A stretch of 64,000 nucleotides of DNA, taken from Fervidicoccaceae archaeon. Lineage in GTDB: Archaea > Thermoproteota > Thermoprotei_A > Sulfolobales > Fervidicoccaceae. The notes beneath the pieces were generated by a model that saw nothing but the letters and a program-made list of their open reading frames with translations, ran no database searches and was not told the origin of the DNA. A program made the position numbers and the translations under genes. Positions 53,312-62,331 of the stretch are shown here, one piece after another (the stretch's first letter is position 1; each line of letters starts with the position of its first letter). The stretch is taken from the NCBI GenBank assembly GCA_038734945.1, contig JAVYOA010000009.1:62001-126000 (forward strand). The letters are read 5' to 3'.

Positions 53312-53569
53312 TCAGAGAATGCCACAGCCCCTCAGCTTTCTTTCCGCTTCAGTGTATACTCTCAAGAATTCTTTTCCCTCTTTGCTTAGCTTATATCCTC
53401 CCCTCCCCCTCCTCCTCTCTACAAGCTGTACCATAGCTTTTGCTTCAGCAGTTCTCAGCTTCAGCCATGCTCTTTTATAGTTCATTCCAATTTTTGCTGA
53501 AGCTCTTCTCAAGCTTCCACTTTCCTCCACAGCCCTCAGTAGTTCAGCAAGACCTCTTCCCCCAATCAC
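53312..53569 (-). CDS. ModE N-terminal-type winged-helix regulator
   Basis: 85 residues with the LysR/ModE-like DNA-binding domain: LAELLRAVEESGSLRRASAKIGMNYKRAWLKLRTAE covers the helix-turn-helix (about residues 8-43 in pieces), and RRRGRGGYKLSKEGKEFL is the wing and following helix. There is no molybdate-binding MOP domain. Archaeal single-domain ModE-like proteins may control molybdate genes, of interest because two Mo enzymes are in this window, but no modABC is adjacent. GTG 53569 start. Confidence 0.78.
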   Translation of the reverse strand: MIGGRGLAELLRAVEESGSLRRASAKIGMNYKRAWLKLRTAEAKAMVQLVERRRGRGGYKLSKEGKEFLRVYTEAERKLRGCGIL

Positions 53570-53686: not shown

Positions 53687-53762
53687 GGGCCCGTGGCCTA
53701 GCCAGGATTAAGGCACCGGCCTGCGGAGCCGGAGATCCCGGGTTCAAATCCCGGCGGGCCCG
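53687..53762 (+). tRNA. tRNA-Arg (anticodon GCG)
   Basis: A 76-base cloverleaf: acceptor GGGCCCG pairs with CGGGCCC plus discriminator G; D arm with GGATTAAGG; anticodon stem CCGGC/GCCGG around loop CTGCGGA, anticodon GCG reading CGC (and, if modified, CGU); T arm CCGGG-TTCAAAT-CCCGG. No CCA is encoded and no intron is present. T-rich sequence follows. Confidence 0.95.
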
Positions 53763-53890
53763 CATTTTCAGGATGCATTTAGCTATATTCAACTGTACAT
53801 AAAAATTTCAGAAGTTCTCTGGAGCTTCTGACTATTTCTAAATAATACGCTAATTTTGTAAATCGCAAAAAATATTAATTTGAATAAATA

Positions 53891-53916
53891 TTCATGTGAA
53901 TAGTGATTCACATGAA
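53891..53916. promoter_or_regulatory. Perfect 11-4-11 palindromic operator candidate
   Basis: TTCATGTGAAT, spacer AGTG, ATTCACATGAA: 11 bases of perfect dyad symmetry. It covers the SD (GTGAT) and start codon (ATG 53912) of the HdrA-N-domain gene. The core TGAATAGTGATTCA resembles the 12-2-12 operators of SmtB/ArsR-family repressors, and an ArsR gene is third in this cluster. Binding would block both transcription start and translation region. Confidence 0.65.
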
Positions 53917-54259
53917 AGGGCTTGTAGTATGCGTCTGCCAGGGTACATGCCCCTCATTTTCAAAACTGAATGTTTTTGAACTAATAAATAAGCTTAGGAG
54001 AGAGAAAAAAGTAGATTTTGCCCTTATTCATCCACAGCTATGCGCTTCAGATGGAGACAATCTCTGGAGAGTCCTCTTGGCAGGAAGAAACATCTCAAAA
54101 CTTGTGGTAGCAGGCTGCGCCCCAGAAATGCAGAAGAAGATGTTTGGATGGGTATTCAAGGAGCTGAACTTCGACGAGTCTCTGTTCATTCCTGTCGAGA
54201 TAAGGAACATGACAACAGAGGAAGCTCTACAATCTATTGAGAAAGCACTGGAGCAATAA
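53912..54259 (+). CDS. Stand-alone HdrA N-terminal-domain protein
   Basis: 115 residues homologous by eye to the first 130 residues of the long HdrA at 59951-61900. Both have an N-terminal Cys-x-Cys (C7, C9 here), a central Cys (C44 in PQLCASDGDN versus FMCSEPGQN) and VVAGCAPEMQKKMF versus VIAACSPSMHEQTF (C69). An extra C13 is present. No flavin domain follows. In HdrA this domain precedes the flavin domain and is thought to hold an Fe-S cluster, so this could be a small Fe-S or thiol carrier. ATG 53912 with GTGAT upstream. 15 bases precede the ferredoxin gene. Confidence 0.65.
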   Translation: MKGLVVCVCQGTCPSFSKLNVFELINKLRREKKVDFALIHPQLCASDGDNLWRVLLAGRNISKLVVAGCAPEMQKKMFGWVFKELNFDESLFIPVEIRNMTTEEALQSIEKALEQ

Positions 54260-54274
54260 AAAGGTTGATTCTCC

Positions 54275-54475
54275 ATGACCAAAGATTGGTATCCGATTAT
54301 AGACTATGAGAGATGCACTGGATGCTTAACATGCGTTAATTTTTGTCCACACGCTGTATATAATGTTGGGGAAGACAACAAGCCAAAAGTTGCTTCTCCA
54401 GACAACTGTATAGAAATGTGCAGAGGTTGTCAAAGGATATGCCCTACCTCAGCCATAAGCTATCATGGAGAGTAA
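54275..54475 (+). CDS. 2[4Fe-4S] ferredoxin-like protein
   Basis: 66 residues, begins MTKDWYPIIDYERCTGC. First cluster motif CTGCLTCVNFCP is standard. The second, CIEMCRGCQRICP, has three residues between the first two cysteines rather than two, an altered spacing. Probably carries electrons for the adjacent HdrA-N-domain protein. Tightly placed between that gene and the ArsR gene. Confidence 0.8.
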   Translation: MTKDWYPIIDYERCTGCLTCVNFCPHAVYNVGEDNKPKVASPDNCIEMCRGCQRICPTSAISYHGE

Positions 54476-54526
54476 AAAATAGATATGGCTTTAGCATAAA
54501 TATTCTTCAAGCATGGTTGCTTGGAA

Positions 54527-54910
54527 ATGCCTGAGCAGTATTTACTGAGGGACTTAATCAGAAAAATTCAGGAAGCAGGAATGTGCAAGGAAGAGCCTCC
54601 AGTGCCAGATCTCGATAAAGCTGTAGATCTGCCCACTGAAAATCTGAATACAATCTCAAAAATCTTATCAACAATCTCCGAGCCTTTAAGACTGAAGATT
54701 CTCTATCTTCTCCGCCAATCTCCGCTGCCAGTATGCATAATAGCATTTTTGTTGAAGACTGATAGAACTCTAGTTTCGCATCACATGAATAAGCTCCTTG
54801 AGCTTGGGCTCGTTAAAGTAGAGCGCAGTAGGCGCTTCAGCATATACAGCCTTACGGATCAGGGGAAGGAACTGGTAAAAGCCATCGAAAAAATATTAGA
54901 AAACAGATAA
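54527..54910 (+). CDS. ArsR/SmtB-family transcriptional regulator
   Basis: 127 residues. A 40-residue N-terminal extension (with C20) precedes the winged helix: ISEPLRLKILYLLRQSPLPVCIIAFLLK, recognition helix TLVSHHMNKLLELGLVKVERS, and wing RRFSIYSLTDQG. C70 lies in PLPVC, near the position of the metal-binding Cys of ArsR (ELCVCDL), but the paired Cys is missing; C20 could complete a site. Likely represses its own operon at 53891-53916. TTG 54521 is an alternative start. Confidence 0.82.
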   Translation: MPEQYLLRDLIRKIQEAGMCKEEPPVPDLDKAVDLPTENLNTISKILSTISEPLRLKILYLLRQSPLPVCIIAFLLKTDRTLVSHHMNKLLELGLVKVERSRRFSIYSLTDQGKELVKAIEKILENR

Positions 54911-55032
54911 GTAAGCGCATTGTCGTTCAAGAAAAGCTGCTTCAATATTCAAGGGAGAAAATCTCAACTACCAGCTCTTTTCTTCATTTCCTTTTAGCAT
55001 TTTTAAAAGAAGCTTTAGCAAGTATAAAAAAA

Positions 55033-55875
55033 CTACAAATATGTATATGGATATAGCCTAGGAACAGCTAATGTTAGGAGCTCAATCAATTTGTATGCCT
55101 CAACTGCATCCTTAGCTTTGTATTTTACCGTTTTCCCATCAATCCTCTCAACCATGGGAATTAGCTCCGCTACATCGCCCATCTCTGTTCCTAGGAATCT
55201 CACTTTCATGTCGAGTGGACTTTCAGCCTGCAGTGGTCTTCCCTCCCCTCTTCTATATTTTTCGATAGCCCTTCTTGCTGCTTCTCTTATTTCCCTCTCA
55301 ACCTTCTTCAGACTCTTGCTTGCTGATGCAAATCTGGAGAATGACTCCTTCAGCACTACTCTCTCAGCCCAAGGAGCGCTCTTTGAAACATCCTCTTCAA
55401 TAAGAACTCTGTCTCCAGCCACGAGCATCACGGGAACGTTGAAATGTCCTGCCACATATGCGTTCAGCAAAAATTCACTGACCGGCATGCCGTTGATTTC
55501 AATGCTATCGATTGAAGCACTACTGTAGGTATGGTCGAAGCTGGAGCGAGCAGTCCCAGCTTTAGAATGATATCCCAGAAAAACAGCAATCTTTGAGCCT
55601 TCTATGCCCGTAATCATGCTAAGCGGTCTAGGAAACCCTCGAATCAATGTAACATATTCTGGTAAACTCTCCACATCAAGATTTATCATTGGTCCATGGC
55701 TGTCCGCTACAATAACCTCTTCAAAGCCTCCTTCGTGAAGCTCTTCAACAACAGCTAGTGTCACTCTCGTAGCTATTCTCCTAGCTTCGTTGTAGAGAGC
55801 GCCTTTCACAAAAAGATGTTCGCCAGATGCTATAAACGGCATCCCCTCAAGATCCACCGAGACAAAAGCTCTCAA
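55033..55875 (-). CDS. D-aminopeptidase DppA (M55 family)
   Basis: A zinc-dependent M55 peptidase of about 280 residues. The signature SVDLEGMPF near the start (SxDxEG), VADSHGPMINLD, FLGYHSKAG with the central His, SSFDHTYSSASI and GDRVLIEE are typical. It cleaves short peptides, possibly with D-residues. TTG 55875 with GGTG 7 bases upstream is chosen; the frame extends 18 codons further (hydrophobic, YINILIFSKKI) without an SD. No dpp transport genes adjoin. Confidence 0.82.
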   Translation of the reverse strand: MRAFVSVDLEGMPFIASGEHLFVKGALYNEARRIATRVTLAVVEELHEGGFEEVIVADSHGPMINLDVESLPEYVTLIRGFPRPLSMITGIEGSKIAVFLGYHSKAGTARSSFDHTYSSASIDSIEINGMPVSEFLLNAYVAGHFNVPVMLVAGDRVLIEEDVSKSAPWAERVVLKESFSRFASASKSLKKVEREIREAARRAIEKYRRGEGRPLQAESPLDMKVRFLGTEMGDVAELIPMVERIDGKTVKYKAKDAVEAYKLIELLTLAVPRLYPYTYL

Positions 55876-57441: not shown

Positions 57442-58545
57442 ATGTACCAAACAGTGGTTCCAAAATCAAAGGTTGTTGAGGAAATAAGTAGGCTGGGAGG
57501 CATCGGTCTTCTGAAGTGCTATCAATGCGGTCTGTGCACAGCAATTTGCCCCATTTCCGAGATCTTTCAGAGCAGCTTCAGGAGAACTATAAGATATGCT
57601 CAGCTAGGAATAGCAAACAGGATCATTTCGGATCCCACACCATGGCTCTGTCACGGATGTGGTGAGTGCACAGCATCATGTCCCAGAGAAGCTAATCCTG
57701 GAGACGTGATGGCAGCTGTAAGAAGGTATCAAACAATCCAGTTCTCTCCTGGAAGAGTGGCTTCACTTTTCAATTTCGGCAGAACATCAATTCCGCTCAT
57801 TCTATTCATCTCCTTTTTTGCATCTGCTGCGCTTTATCTGCTCAGAGGAACTCCAAATATGTCCGAGGTCAATATATACTCCCTCATCCCGTACTCAACC
57901 ATACATGCTCTTGGAGTCATCCTAGCAGCATTCATACTTGTCATAGCAGCATATAGCCTGTTACAGATGTACAGGAAGCTAGGAAGAATGAAAGAGCATC
58001 CCAAGAGTGTAGGCAGCATGGAAAAAATTAGCAAGTTATTGAGCGTTATTATATTAGCTGGATTAATTCAGTTGAATTTCAAAAGATGCTCCAACTATCT
58101 CTCTAGGTATATAGCTCATCTCTCCATTTTCTGGGGATTCATAGGATTGTTTGTAGCTAGCAGCATTCACTATGTAAGCGATATTTTTGCTCTTGGTATA
58201 AGCTCATACGTTCCCAGAGCGGTCGGATTAATTTCTGGGGCCTTTCTAATATATGGGAGCTCTTACTACATCTACAAGAGGCTGAGAAAGGATGAAGCTT
58301 TCATTAGACAGAGCACATATTCTGACTGGCTCTTTCTCATTCTCCTTCTCATAGCAGGGATTACCGGCTTTCTCCTCGATGCATTCATATACTTCAACAT
58401 CCCCCTTGCTGCATATTTCACATATGCTGCTCATCTCATATCCGTGTTCGATTTGATCGTTCTCGCCCCATTCACCAAGTTTGCCCATTCCGTCTACAGA
58501 CCAATTGCTATTTGGATCAATGAGATAAGAGGTGCCAATCCTTGA
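57442..58545 (+). CDS. qmoC: QmoC-like membrane subunit (HdrC Fe-S domain fused to cytochrome b)
   Basis: 367 residues. The N-terminal HdrC domain has two complete [4Fe-4S] sets: CYQCGLCTAICP (C26-C36) and CHGCGECTASCP (C70-C80). After about residue 110 come six membrane segments of NarI/HdrE type, with candidate haem-ligand His in SRYIAHLSIFWG, SSIHYVSD, YAAHLISV and FAHSVYRP. This fusion is the layout of QmoC in quinone-interacting membrane oxidoreductases of sulfate reducers. It should exchange electrons between quinone and the HdrA flavoproteins. First gene of a six-gene overlapping operon. Confidence 0.88.
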   Translation: MYQTVVPKSKVVEEISRLGGIGLLKCYQCGLCTAICPISEIFQSSFRRTIRYAQLGIANRIISDPTPWLCHGCGECTASCPREANPGDVMAAVRRYQTIQFSPGRVASLFNFGRTSIPLILFISFFASAALYLLRGTPNMSEVNIYSLIPYSTIHALGVILAAFILVIAAYSLLQMYRKLGRMKEHPKSVGSMEKISKLLSVIILAGLIQLNFKRCSNYLSRYIAHLSIFWGFIGLFVASSIHYVSDIFALGISSYVPRAVGLISGAFLIYGSSYYIYKRLRKDEAFIRQSTYSDWLFLILLLIAGITGFLLDAFIYFNIPLAAYFTYAAHLISVFDLIVLAPFTKFAHSVYRPIAIWINEIRGANP

Positions 58546-59954
58546 TTTTTCCATTGAAAGATCTCAGTTCCTCTCAAGAGTTGCGGAATGCATCTAGCTT
58601 AAAATTGAGAACTAACGCGCATAGCTCGAAGCCTGTTCTAGTAGTAGGAGCAGGAATAGCAGGAATCCAAGCAGCTCTCGATTTGGCAGAGCAAGGAATT
58701 AAGGTCTACCTCATAGATAGAAATCCGAGCATAGGAGGAAAAATGGCCCTTCTAGACAAAACATTTCCAACCCTTGATTGTGCTTCATGCATTCTTGCGC
58801 CCAAAATGGCATCTGTGCAGAGAAATCCAAACATAAAAATTCTCACGCTATCTGAGTTAAAGCAAATAGATGGGAAGGCCGGAAACTTCCATTGCAGAAT
58901 CCTCAAGCATCCAAGCTATGTAGACTGGGAAAAGTGCACTGGATGTGGCACATGCATAGAGAAGTGCCCCCAGAAAGTTCCAGATGAGTTCAATCTAGGA
59001 ATGAGCAAGAGAAAAGCAATCTTCATAGCTTTTCCCCAAGCTGTTCCGAGAAAGGCGGTTATAGATGCAGCGAATTGCTTGAGGTTGAACCCCCCTCAGA
59101 AACTGAAAGAAAGAGCTGGGGGGAGAGCGATCTGCGGCATTTGCGAGAGATTTTGTCCTGCAGGAGCCATAAAGTTCAGCGATGCATCAGAGGAAGTCAT
59201 TATTGAAGCATCCGCCGTGATAATTGCAACTGGTATGGAAATTTATGATGCTCGGAATGTTCCCGAGTATGGCTATGGGAAATATCAAAACGTTTTTGTT
59301 CACCTCGAATTCGAGAGAATGCTCTCAGCTACGGGACCGACTGGAGGATTGATATTAAGGAGAAGCGATGGGAAGCCCCCGAGAAGAATCGCATGGATTC
59401 AATGCGTAGGCTCCAGAGATATAAGGTTCAACCACTACTGCTCATCTTTCTGCTGCATGGCAGCAACCAAGCAAGCAGTTCTTGCCAAGGAACACTTGGA
59501 AAATGTGAGCTGCACTATATACTACATGGACATCAGAGCTTTTGGCAAGGGATTCAACGAGTTCATAGAGAGGGCAAAGAACGAGTTTGGCATTAAATAT
59601 GTTAGAGGAAAAGTTGCTAGAATTGAGGAGGATCCAAGCTCTAGGGATCTCACGCTCATATATGAGGACACCTCCCATAGCTACCTGAAGAGAGAGAGCT
59701 ACGATTTGGTGGTCCTGGCAGTAGCAATTAGGCCAAACAGGATCTATCCAATAATCCCAGTTGAAACGAATGAGGATGGCTTCGTGAAGCTTAAAGATCC
59801 CTACATAGATCCCGTTTCTACAACAGTCGATGGAATATTCGTGGCTGGAGTGGCAGCTGGAGCAAAGGATATACCCGATTCAGTCAGTGAGGCCAGTGCA
59901 GCTGCTGCTAGAGCAGCCCTCATCGCTAAGCAAAAAGGTGGTGCTGGAAGTTGA
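58542..59954 (+). CDS. HdrA-like flavoprotein 1 (QmoA-like)
   Basis: 470 residues. A short unstructured start is followed by the FAD fold VLVVGAGIAGIQAALDLAE (about 32-50). The HdrA-specific FPTLDCASCILAPKM (C80, C83) is present. Fe-S motifs are CTGCGTCIEKCP and an irregular set (Cys at INAANCLRL-type position, then CGICERFCPAG). The CVGSRDIR plus YCSSFCCMAATKQA motif is that of the HdrA core. It lacks the HdrA N-terminal domain and C-terminal ferredoxin domain, as QmoA does. TTG 58542 has GAGGTG upstream and overlaps qmoC by 4 bases. Confidence 0.85.
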   Translation: MIFPLKDLSSSQELRNASSLKLRTNAHSSKPVLVVGAGIAGIQAALDLAEQGIKVYLIDRNPSIGGKMALLDKTFPTLDCASCILAPKMASVQRNPNIKILTLSELKQIDGKAGNFHCRILKHPSYVDWEKCTGCGTCIEKCPQKVPDEFNLGMSKRKAIFIAFPQAVPRKAVIDAANCLRLNPPQKLKERAGGRAICGICERFCPAGAIKFSDASEEVIIEASAVIIATGMEIYDARNVPEYGYGKYQNVFVHLEFERMLSATGPTGGLILRRSDGKPPRRIAWIQCVGSRDIRFNHYCSSFCCMAATKQAVLAKEHLENVSCTIYYMDIRAFGKGFNEFIERAKNEFGIKYVRGKVARIEEDPSSRDLTLIYEDTSHSYLKRESYDLVVLAVAIRPNRIYPIIPVETNEDGFVKLKDPYIDPVSTTVDGIFVAGVAAGAKDIPDSVSEASAAAARAALIAKQKGGAGS

Positions 59955-61900
59955 GCGAGAAGCCAAGGATAGGCATCTACATCTGCCACTGCGGTCTTAA
60001 CATAGCAGGAACTGTGGACGTAGAAGAGCTCGCGAGATATGCAGCATCTCTTCCCGACGTCATCGTAGCGAGAGATTATGTTTTCATGTGCTCTGAGCCT
60101 GGGCAGAATCTCATAAAGGAGGACATAAAGGAGAAAGAACTTAACAGAATAGTTATAGCAGCATGCTCTCCATCTATGCATGAACAGACTTTTAGATCAG
60201 TTCTCGAATCTGCAGGACTCAACAAATACTTACTAGAAATGGCCAACATAAGAGAGCACTGCTCTTGGATACATTCAGACAGAAGAAAGGCGACAGAGAA
60301 AGCAAAGGAGATAGTCAGAATGGCAGCTTCCAAGGCAAGGTACTTGGAGCCAATAGAAGAGAAAACTTTCCCAACTACAAGAAACGTCATGATCTTGGGC
60401 GGAGGAGTTGCTGGAATGAGAGCAGCTATAGAGCTGGCAGAATACGGCTTTGAGGTCTATCTTGTCGAGAGAAAGCCCATTCTAGGAGGGAAATCTGCAG
60501 TCATAGGTTACATTTCTCCTGGAATAAGGGGTAAAGAAATAGTTCAAAAGATGTTCGAGAGAATAAGGGGAAATCCAAGGATACATGTTTTCACTCAAGC
60601 TGAGCTCATTGAGCTAAAGGGATTTGCTGGGAACTTCACGGGAAAGCTGAGAATTCATCCAAAACATGTGAATGAAAGATGTAACGAGTGTGGGGAATGC
60701 GAAGATGCTTGTCCCATAGAAATATCAAATGAATATGACTTCTCTCTGAGCAGGAGAAAGGCAATTTACAAGCCATTTCCCGGCTCATACCCAGAGGGCT
60801 ATATTATAGATGATAGAGTTTGCGTCAAGTGCGGAGAGTGTGTTAGAGCATGCAGGAGAAAAGCTATAGATCTAGATGGGGAGGAGAAGTTAATTGAGAT
60901 CAAATTCGGAGCTCTCATCATAGCTGTAGGCTATGATCCCTACAGACCCTCCAAAGGCGAGTTTGGATATGGCTTGAGTGACTCCGTGCTGACTCTCTTC
61001 CAGCTAGAAAGATTGCTTGACGAGGATGGTCCCACCAGGGGGGAGCCGATTGTAAGAGGGAAGATTCCAGAGACAATAGCTTTTGTTCAGTGTGTGGGGT
61101 CTAGAAGCACAACCCCCTCATCAAGACCTTACTGCTCGAGAATGTGCTGCACATCTGCTCTAACCAATGCCATAAGGCTGAAGGAAAAACATCCGGAAAT
61201 TGAGATATTCTTCATATACAGAGATATAATGACCTATGGGAGCGATGAGGGGCTCTACGAAGAAGCCGGAAAGAGAATGATAAAGTTCATAAAGTACGAG
61301 GGAGAACCTCCACAGGTCCAAATTACACCCGAGGGAGTATTCATAGAAGTCACCGATTACCTTCTGCAGGAAAGCATAAGAATACCGGTAGACGCTGTCA
61401 TCCTTTCGACCGGAATGATTCCTCCAAGGGATCTGGGAGACGTCATTGCTGTTACAAGGGCAACATGTGGAGAGGAGGGGTTTCTGAGGGAGGCCCACAT
61501 AAAGCTTGCCCCCGTCGAATCACCAACCAGAGGAATATACATAGCAGGATCTGTTTCAGGTCCCAAGAACATAAGAGAGAGCATAATTTCCGGGAGTGCT
61601 GCAGCTGCTAAGGCTATGGCCCTCATTAGTAGAGGAGAAGTTGTTGCTGAACCAATGATAGCCAAGGTTGATGAAGAAAGATGCAGCGGCTGCGGGATCT
61701 GCATTTCTGCATGCCCCTATAATGCCATTTCGATAGAGGAAAAGGAAGGTGATAGACTGGCAAGAGTGGAAGATGCTCTCTGCATGGGATGCGGGACATG
61801 CGCCTCAGCGTGCCCGTCTGGAGCAATGCAGCAGTTGGGTTTCAAGGACATTCAGATAAGAGCTCAGATATCCGCTTTATCGGAGGTCGAAGGGAAATGA
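59951..61900 (+). CDS. hdrA: HdrA-like flavoprotein 2, full-length (QmoB/HdrA type)
   Basis: 649 residues. N-terminal Fe-S-type domain 1-140 (C12, C14, C47, C72, C104), FAD fold ILGGGVAGMRAAIELAE at about 148-164, core Fe-S motifs CNECGECEDACP and CVKCGECVRACR, the CVGSRSTT plus YCSRMCCTSA motif, and a C-terminal 2[4Fe-4S] domain (CSGCGICISACP, CMGCGTCASACP). The double-Cys loop of HdrA1 is absent here; that region reads SAVIGYISPGIRG. TTG 59951 overlaps hdrA1. With the next gene (MvhD) it corresponds to QmoB, which is an HdrA-MvhD fusion. Confidence 0.9.
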   Translation: MSEKPRIGIYICHCGLNIAGTVDVEELARYAASLPDVIVARDYVFMCSEPGQNLIKEDIKEKELNRIVIAACSPSMHEQTFRSVLESAGLNKYLLEMANIREHCSWIHSDRRKATEKAKEIVRMAASKARYLEPIEEKTFPTTRNVMILGGGVAGMRAAIELAEYGFEVYLVERKPILGGKSAVIGYISPGIRGKEIVQKMFERIRGNPRIHVFTQAELIELKGFAGNFTGKLRIHPKHVNERCNECGECEDACPIEISNEYDFSLSRRKAIYKPFPGSYPEGYIIDDRVCVKCGECVRACRRKAIDLDGEEKLIEIKFGALIIAVGYDPYRPSKGEFGYGLSDSVLTLFQLERLLDEDGPTRGEPIVRGKIPETIAFVQCVGSRSTTPSSRPYCSRMCCTSALTNAIRLKEKHPEIEIFFIYRDIMTYGSDEGLYEEAGKRMIKFIKYEGEPPQVQITPEGVFIEVTDYLLQESIRIPVDAVILSTGMIPPRDLGDVIAVTRATCGEEGFLREAHIKLAPVESPTRGIYIAGSVSGPKNIRESIISGSAAAAKAMALISRGEVVAEPMIAKVDEERCSGCGICISACPYNAISIEEKEGDRLARVEDALCMGCGTCASACPSGAMQQLGFKDIQIRAQISALSEVEGK

Positions 61901-62331
61901 ACAGAGAGTGGACTCCCAGAATAGTAGCTTTTGTTTGCAACTGGTGCACCTATGCAGCAGCTGATCTGGCTGGGACTAGCAGGATGCAGCAGCCCGACAG
62001 CGTGAGGATAGTTAGGCTCATGTGCTCTGGTAGAGCAGATCCCCAATTCGTTCTAGAGGCAATAGCTAATGGGGCGGATGGGGTAATAGTTGCTGGGTGC
62101 CATCCGCCCTCAGATTGTCACTATCAAGAAGGGAACTACAGAGCCTTTAGAAGATTCATGCTCCTCCGAAGGGTGCTGGAATCCATGGGTGTCGAGAAGG
62201 AGAGATTCAGACTGGAGTGGATCTCAGCCTCGGAAGCGAGGAAGTGGGTAGAAGTAGTGAGGAGCATGACGGAGGATCTCAAGAGGCTTGGCCCGCTCAG
62301 AAGGGACGAAGAGGGGATAAAGGTTGAATAA
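61897..62331 (+). CDS. mvhD: Methyl-viologen-reducing hydrogenase delta subunit (MvhD)
   Basis: 144 residues. The [2Fe-2S]-binding cysteines are CNWCTYAAADLAG (C14, C17), VRLMCSGR (C43), AGCHPPSDCHY (C68, C74). MvhD connects the hydrogenase to HdrA. Start is ATG 61897 with GGAGGT upstream, overlapping hdrA2 by 4 bases; a 36-codon upstream extension lies inside hdrA2 and is spurious. Its position between HdrA2 and MvhG fits its bridging role. Confidence 0.92.
   Translation: MNREWTPRIVAFVCNWCTYAAADLAGTSRMQQPDSVRIVRLMCSGRADPQFVLEAIANGADGVIVAGCHPPSDCHYQEGNYRAFRRFMLLRRVLESMGVEKERFRLEWISASEARKWVEVVRSMTEDLKRLGPLRRDEEGIKVE

Follow-up and report, generated by a model that had tools for sequence, protein, structure and literature searches.

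A probable tandem ArsR/SmtB-type operator, most likely bound by the encoded ArsR, at the hdrN-fd-arsR operon of a Fervidicoccaceae archaeon

The window, a stretch of 64,000 nucleotides from a Fervidicoccaceae archaeon, contained three genes, hdrN, fd and arsR, which were encoded on one strand with short gaps between them. At the beginning of hdrN there were two TGAA-N6-TTCA sites in tandem, with centres 16 bases apart; a palindrome reported in a preliminary description of this DNA corresponded to the downstream half of this arrangement. The features of the locus were as follows:

53873–53880, plus strand: TATA-like element TATTAATT, assigned from its position and in register with TTTATATA of a relative (G046, locus L034)
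53875–53900, no strand: extended operator 1, 26 bases, agreeing at 15 of 16 consensus positions and symmetric at 8 of 11 pairs
53881–53894, no strand: core site 1, TGAATAAATATTCA, of the form TGAA-N6-TTCA, at -31 to -18 from the start codon
53891–53916, no strand: extended operator 2, which is the perfect 11-4-11 palindrome of the preliminary description, agreeing at 16 of 16 consensus positions
53897–53910, no strand: core site 2, TGAATAGTGATTCA, of the form TGAA-N6-TTCA, at -15 to -2 from the start codon
53903–53907, plus strand: GTGAT, which we take to be Shine-Dalgarno-like, in the middle of core site 2 and replaced by GGTGAT in several relatives
53912–54259, plus strand: hdrN, 115 amino acids, a stand-alone iron-sulfur protein resembling the HdrA N-terminal domain, with Cys7, Cys9, Cys13, Cys44 and Cys69 invariant in four aligned proteins
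54275–54475, plus strand: fd, a 66-amino acid ferredoxin with two 4Fe-4S motifs
54527–54910, plus strand: arsR, 127 amino acids, a winged-helix protein of the ArsR/SmtB family and the proposed repressor, identified from profiles and a structure model

The similarity of hdrN to HdrA (NCBIfam) was confined to the first ~100 of 771–777 positions (E = 1e-4, 18–20 bits against cut-offs of 1100–1400); at 115 amino acids it was not a full-length HdrA with an FAD domain. The best NCBIfam match of fd was HgcB (E = 2.1e-12, 46.7 bits against a cut-off of 99). Genes for arsenic efflux or conversion were absent from hdrN-fd-arsR, which was therefore not classed as an ars operon. On the minus strand, divergent from the operon, 53312–53569 encoded a ModE-like, stand-alone DNA-binding protein of 85 amino acids (NCBIfam TIGR00637, E = 2.7e-10, below cut-off). 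A heterodisulfide-reductase-like cluster was located at 57442–62331, comprising a Fer4/membrane protein, two FAD/Fe-S proteins and an FlpD/MvhD protein; the second FAD/Fe-S protein was similar to hdrN at its N-terminus. Positions 53854–55180 were 87% identical at the DNA level, over 1337 columns, to locus L198 of G169, a genome placed in a different family, and this block of similarity began 91 bases past a tRNA-Arg gene (53687–53763). Genomes G001 and G002, of the same genus as the window, were without hdrN. Horizontal transfer of the hdrN module next to a tRNA gene is suggested.

The inverted repeat TTCATGTGAAT-AGTG-ATTCACATGAA was observed at 53891–53916, which reads TTCATGTGAATAGTGATTCACATGAA, with both 11-base arms matching perfectly across the 4-base loop, exactly as first described. 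Its claimed overlap with the start of hdrN was also evident, the ATG (53912–53914) falling within the right arm, and arsR began 611 bases past the end of the palindrome, where approximately 600 had been given. When up to three mismatches were allowed, the palindrome arms occurred at a single place in the 1,338,861-base genome, i.e., 53891–53916. Similarly, this was the one perfect inverted repeat in the window with arms of at least 11 bases and a loop of at most 12. However, 20 first-order Markov controls produced a mean of 0.35 such repeats per window (0.15 where the loop was restricted to four bases or fewer), and because of this expectation the palindrome alone is weak evidence and not beyond chance. 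What does lie beyond chance is the rarity of the tandem core in the genome, the position of its two best 26-base matches at this locus, and the register of both cores across relatives.

In the 1.34 Mb genome there were four occurrences of TGAATNNNNATTCA, two of them in tandem here and two within long ORFs. The two best genomic matches to the 26-base form TTCANNTGAANNNNNNTTCANNTGAA were 53891–53916 (no mismatch) and 53875–53900 (one mismatch); the next-best extended match, at C9:138659 with two mismatches, was situated within a GTPase-like ORF. At three mismatches or fewer, this form matched 18 places against 3 for a reversed control, while the loose form TGAANNNNNNTTCA matched 62 against 15. 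The exact pattern TGAAN6TTCANNTGAAN6TTCA was found at 53881–53910 only, and scans of the genome with core, extended and tandem patterns found no second array of this kind. A search of the whole genome for further copies had been proposed as a route to the regulon; since the best matches were all at the hdrN promoter, there was no sign of one, and a regulon was rejected, although the loose form was matched at 62 places. The array is unique in the genome and is taken to be a putative dedicated operator.

Core site 1 abutted the TATA-like element, beginning at 53881 where the latter ends at 53880, and overlapped the reported palindrome, such that the array took in the whole stretch between the TATA-like element and the start codon, ribosome site included. 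These elements were named for their positions and for the clearer TTTATATA and GGTGAT in relatives. A scan for sigma-70 promoters produced nothing above shuffled sequences, this being a bacterial model unsuited to archaea. An inverted repeat lying over promoter elements or the transcription start is characteristic of ArsR/SmtB-type operators, and this was the arrangement observed, with the promoter elements assigned as above. The palindrome of the preliminary description was real but incomplete as an operator, which consists of two sites in tandem; the upstream site at 53881–53894, which had been overlooked, is about as informative as the downstream one.

Conservation was assessed among genomes that carry hdrN. 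A profile of four hdrN proteins (E ≤ 1e-20) had matches in 15 of the 214 genomes of the order and in 32 of a 398-genome sample of the phylum. Orthologues were taken to be matches with E < 1e-57, plus the split gene of G124, giving 15 genomes that include the window genome (G000); weaker matches (E ~1e-26 to 1e-36) represented a paralogous group and were excluded, and genomes also found under names (e.g., L042 Terraquivivens, L044 Methanomethylicota) were counted once each. In all 15, hdrN was followed by fd. In nine genomes the pair was followed by arsR (G000, G169, G046, G140, G123, G124, G172, G249 and G273), while in six arsR was not adjacent (G009, G019, G125, G132, G156 and G394). Searching whole genomes with an ArsR profile built from 11 proteins (A2; orthologue cut-off E ≤ 1e-6) recovered no orthologue in G009, G019, G125, G132 or G156. 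The exception was G394, which had an unlinked orthologue (E = 1.4e-29) and matched the core at 8/8 positions in site 1 and 7/8 in site 2; a short ORF after its fd (L050) resembled the N-terminus of ArsR, but was not confirmed as an arsR remnant.

At a fixed offset from the start codon, the nine genomes with an adjacent arsR agreed with TGAA-N6-TTCA at 59 of 72 positions in the case of site 1; for site 2 the figure was 65 of 72. By comparison, 540 other common upstream offsets scored 19.2 ± 4.0 (maximum 30) and offsets in coding DNA reached a maximum of 45. The five genomes without an orthologue scored 13/40 and 18/40 for sites 1 and 2 respectively. The absence of the palindrome from relatives that keep the cluster, which had been named as an outcome that would speak against the ArsR connection, was looked for; instead, a core site matching in register at 7–8 of 8 positions was present in 9/9 genomes with an adjacent arsR (that of G169 being a pseudogene) and in the single genome with an unlinked orthologue, and was absent from 5/5 that keep hdrN-fd without one. 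This comparison (10/10 against 0/5) supports the view that the sites are a putative operator for the ArsR encoded two genes downstream. By Fisher's test the association has a probability of 1 in 3003, a value that assumes independence among genomes that in fact share ancestry; in an hdrN tree (22 proteins), the 'no arsR' label had to change only three times, and the 15 genomes therefore represent few independent events.

The two sites were not uniformly preserved. Site 1 was poor at loci L127 (3/8 in register), L128 (3/8) and L129 (6/8), and site 2 was weaker at L034 and L136 (6/8 each). Perfect symmetry was peculiar to the window genome, with 7–10 of 11 pairs in the nine other genomes that have an orthologue. 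Genomes without arsR still scored 8–12 of 16 on the extended consensus, and site 2 is held in part by the ribosome site and a conserved Met-Lys start as well.

Loss of the sites accompanied loss of arsR. The hdrN DNA of G046 and G132 was 92% identical and both retained TTTATATATGA, while arsR and the sites were present in G046 only. G046 is placed among relatives without arsR, and together with four of these it retained the TTATATATGA stretch. Decay was seen in G169, the nearest relative of the window (96% identity for hdrN and 92% for fd), where hdrN and fd were intact and arsR was a pseudogene with internal stops and gaps (L127/L167); here, small deletions had damaged site 1, but site 2 was kept at 8/8 despite the broken arsR. 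This case is only half in favour of the link between ArsR and operator. Survival of site 2 may reflect the part of it that the ribosome site and start codon hold in place, or too short a time. Relatives that lost the repressor have thus lost, or are losing, the operator, yet keep the hdrN and fd genes, and so constitute a natural experiment. A different disruption was observed in G124 (L197, G124:C1:380500-388500), where hdrN was split by ~5.8 kb, containing ORFs that we take to be glycosyltransferase-like, and the upstream operator, fd and arsR were still present.

Similar sites were also found in other settings. At L007 (G025) and L008 (G037), the genes for a related ArsR and a different ferredoxin were divergently arranged, with TGAA-N6-TTCA just before the ferredoxin gene; at L007 this site read TTCATATGAAGAAAACTTCATATGA on the ferredoxin strand. 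Therefore, the operator type goes with the ArsR subfamily and extends beyond hdrN alone. No such site was found in the 450 and 41 upstream bases inspected at L005 (G028) and L006 (G008) respectively, which have a more distant ArsR (38% identity) in genomes without hdrN, nor at L004, where arsR is interrupted. Five loci of Thermococcales, in one of which hdrN was matched in part, had one site (7–8 of 8, shifted by 1–2 bases) and lacked both site 2 and an adjacent arsR. The four Thermococcales genomes that were searched had unlinked, weaker ArsR orthologues; at L163–L166 these occurred in a repeated gene order, beside ORFs that are presumably JAB-domain-like and MazG-like. Among eight bacterial hdrN loci with a nearby ArsR, TGAA-N6-TTCA was not found in the stretch upstream of arsR in any case, and because of this the archaeal operator cannot be called common to bacteria.

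These comparisons bear on other ways of explaining the palindrome. Its symmetry would allow the hdrN leader RNA to form a hairpin (11-pair stem, 4-base loop) that would control translation by masking the ribosome site and start codon. RNA from 53881–53935 did fold into exactly the palindrome stem (-13.2 kcal/mol, z = -2.24 against shuffles), and this would cover both GTGAT and the ATG; however, the left arm is upstream of the likely transcription start (approximately -11, judged from the TATA-like element), and RNA lacking this arm (53902–53956) had no unusual fold (z = 0.06). Site 1, similarly conserved, is still further upstream and outside the hairpin. Relatives keep the letters TGAA and TTCA rather than their pairing (7–11 of 11 pairs, with single-sequence folds that vary in shape), and the presence of sites tracks arsR. 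A consensus fold of seven rows gave no pairs, but four rows had wrong left ends and it was not counted as evidence. A hairpin was rejected as very unlikely, given that its left arm probably precedes the transcript, that site 1 is excluded from it and that letters, not pairing, are conserved.

Alternatively, the sites might serve another regulator, i.e., the divergent ModE-like protein, whose gene is the nearest other one for a DNA-binding protein, or an unlinked factor; the single similar site of the Thermococcales, without ArsR beside the genes, could be read in this way. Yet tblastn of the gathered loci detected the ModE-like gene only in the window and, weakly (31%), at a single bacterial locus. 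The sites, by contrast, are conserved widely, and their presence follows the ArsR orthologue. Another regulator was considered quite unlikely, and the ModE-like neighbour was rejected since it is not conserved beside hdrN elsewhere. That the palindrome arose by chance from a ribosome site, a spacer and an ATGAA start would agree with the expected frequency of perfect repeats given above and with a right arm partly fixed by GTGAT and ATGAA. This was extremely unlikely, and was rejected as contradicted by the comparative data: both sites are in register across relatives, far above control offsets, they are lost together with arsR, and the tandem is the sole one of its kind in the genome.

The sites are best explained as a tandem ArsR/SmtB-type operator of the hdrN-fd-arsR operon, most likely bound by the encoded ArsR (with a probability of roughly 0.85). 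Membership of this protein in the family was clear. It matched Pfam HTH_5 (47.5 bits against a cut-off of 22, E = 1.6e-12) and NF033788 (58.2 bits against 55), and its structure model (mean pLDDT 91) was matched by Foldseek to SmtB, CzrA and CadC, such that a winged-helix domain of ArsR/SmtB type was indicated by all three. Its sole cysteines, Cys20 and Cys70, were invariant in 11/11 aligned ArsR proteins. The metal box of the family is defined as ELCV(C/G)D (PMC5658604); helix 3 has LPVCII in its place, keeping LPVC while the first cysteine and the aspartate are missing. The best match among solved structures was CadC of S. aureus pI258 (PDB 1u2w, E = 4.1e-16), in alignment with which Cys20 fell on Cys7 and Cys70 on Cys60, Cys58 was replaced by proline and Cys11 had no equivalent. 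Thus, neither the Cys7-(Cys11)-Cys58-Cys60 metal site of CadC nor a three-cysteine As(III) site is present in a protein with two cysteines in total. One N-terminal and one helix-3 cysteine would suit a two-thiol sensor, like the inter-subunit sites of CadC-like proteins.

Without inducer, homodimers of ArsR (54527–54910) would most likely occupy both sites, preventing access of TBP/TFB or RNA polymerase to the promoter and covering the putative transcription start. In this way hdrN, fd and arsR itself, presumably co-transcribed, would be silenced, and the operator is probably autoregulatory. Release of ArsR would follow when an inducer reacts with Cys20 and Cys70; candidates are thiol oxidants and thiophilic metals or metalloids. 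It had been claimed that overlap with the Shine-Dalgarno sequence and ATG offered a direct block to expression; the overlap is present, but a block of transcription seems likelier than one of translation. As judged from sequence, the switch is well supported and of an ordinary kind, an ArsR/SmtB repressor with its operator, here in an archaeon, and it provides a concrete, testable repressor-operator pair for an archaeal lineage. Substances that release ArsR from this DNA could reveal the inducer of hdrN-fd.

According to PMC5658604, the binding sites of SmtB are imperfect 12-2-12 repeats that lie either inside the operator-promoter or across the transcription start, and the footprint of TtSmtB from Thermus thermophilus covers the -35 box. 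The proposed system resembles those of SmtB, CzrA, NmtR and TtSmtB in having a winged-helix ArsR fold and an inverted-repeat operator over promoter elements, but differs in its archaeal promoter, its two overlapping sites reaching the start codon, the position of the repressor gene at the end of the operon and the substitution of LPVCII for the metal box. With CadC it shares an N-terminal extension with a cysteine corresponding to Cys7, and Cys70 corresponding to Cys60, while lacking equivalents of Cys58 and Cys11; in the account of a review (PMC4287715), the CadC site comprises Cys7, Cys11, Cys58 and Cys60, of which Cys11 is not absolutely required. The same review describes As(III)-responsive ArsR types (R773, A. 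ferrooxidans and C. glutamicum) that use three cysteines; the C. glutamicum site combines cysteines near the N-terminus with one from the partner subunit. These belong to the same family, and bacterial hdrN-fd loci often occur with ars genes; in contrast, the ArsR described here has two cysteines and no ACR3 profile match was obtained in the window's genome. The hgcAB genes of mercury-methylating bacteria are described as under ArsR-like control (PMC10349881), and so offer another pair of iron-sulfur genes governed by an ArsR-like repressor, with HgcB the best, sub-threshold match of fd. However, hdrN is not HgcA, and the ferredoxin is under the HgcB cut-off.

The thiol-based regulators SurR and MsvR control redox genes in archaea; the present system is likewise archaeal, and would likewise place redox genes under thiol-based control, but SurR and MsvR are different proteins from this ArsR. 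No publication on the hdrN-fd gene pair or its operator was recognised in the open-access literature.

The hdrN-fd pair was widespread in anaerobic bacteria and archaea (80 genome_contigs loci, L042–L121), where genes for ArsR, ACR3, ArsD, ArsA, ArsM, a permease and thioredoxin were frequent neighbours. The ArsR-operator finding also draws attention to a small iron-sulfur gene pair that is often beside arsenic genes in anaerobes. A link between hdrN-fd and thiophilic metal(loid)s is a lead and not a result. It is possible, and is put forward tentatively, that hdrN-fd represents a redox module, so far unrecognised, that serves in stress from thiophilic metal(loid)s. Anaerobic bacteria and archaea would share it, and it would have come under the control of different ArsR-family repressors repeatedly. 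The archaeal module would answer to an ArsR subfamily of its own (one N-terminal and one helix-3 cysteine, LPVC), whose tandem operator is merged with the TATA-like element, the ribosome site and the start codon; as the module passes from lineage to lineage, operator and repressor would be gained and lost together. Clustering of ORFs around 93 hdrN loci placed ArsR-family genes near 43 of them, and 22 of the 80 genome_contigs loci had a member of an ACR3, ArsD, ArsC, ArsM or ArsA cluster close by. Ten proteins, one per cluster, were checked by profile; the ACR3, ArsD, ArsA and ArsM representatives scored above their curated cut-offs, while those for ArsC and the permease scored below theirs. 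Matches to ACR3 were found in 4 of 15 genomes tested, and one of these was above the cut-off.
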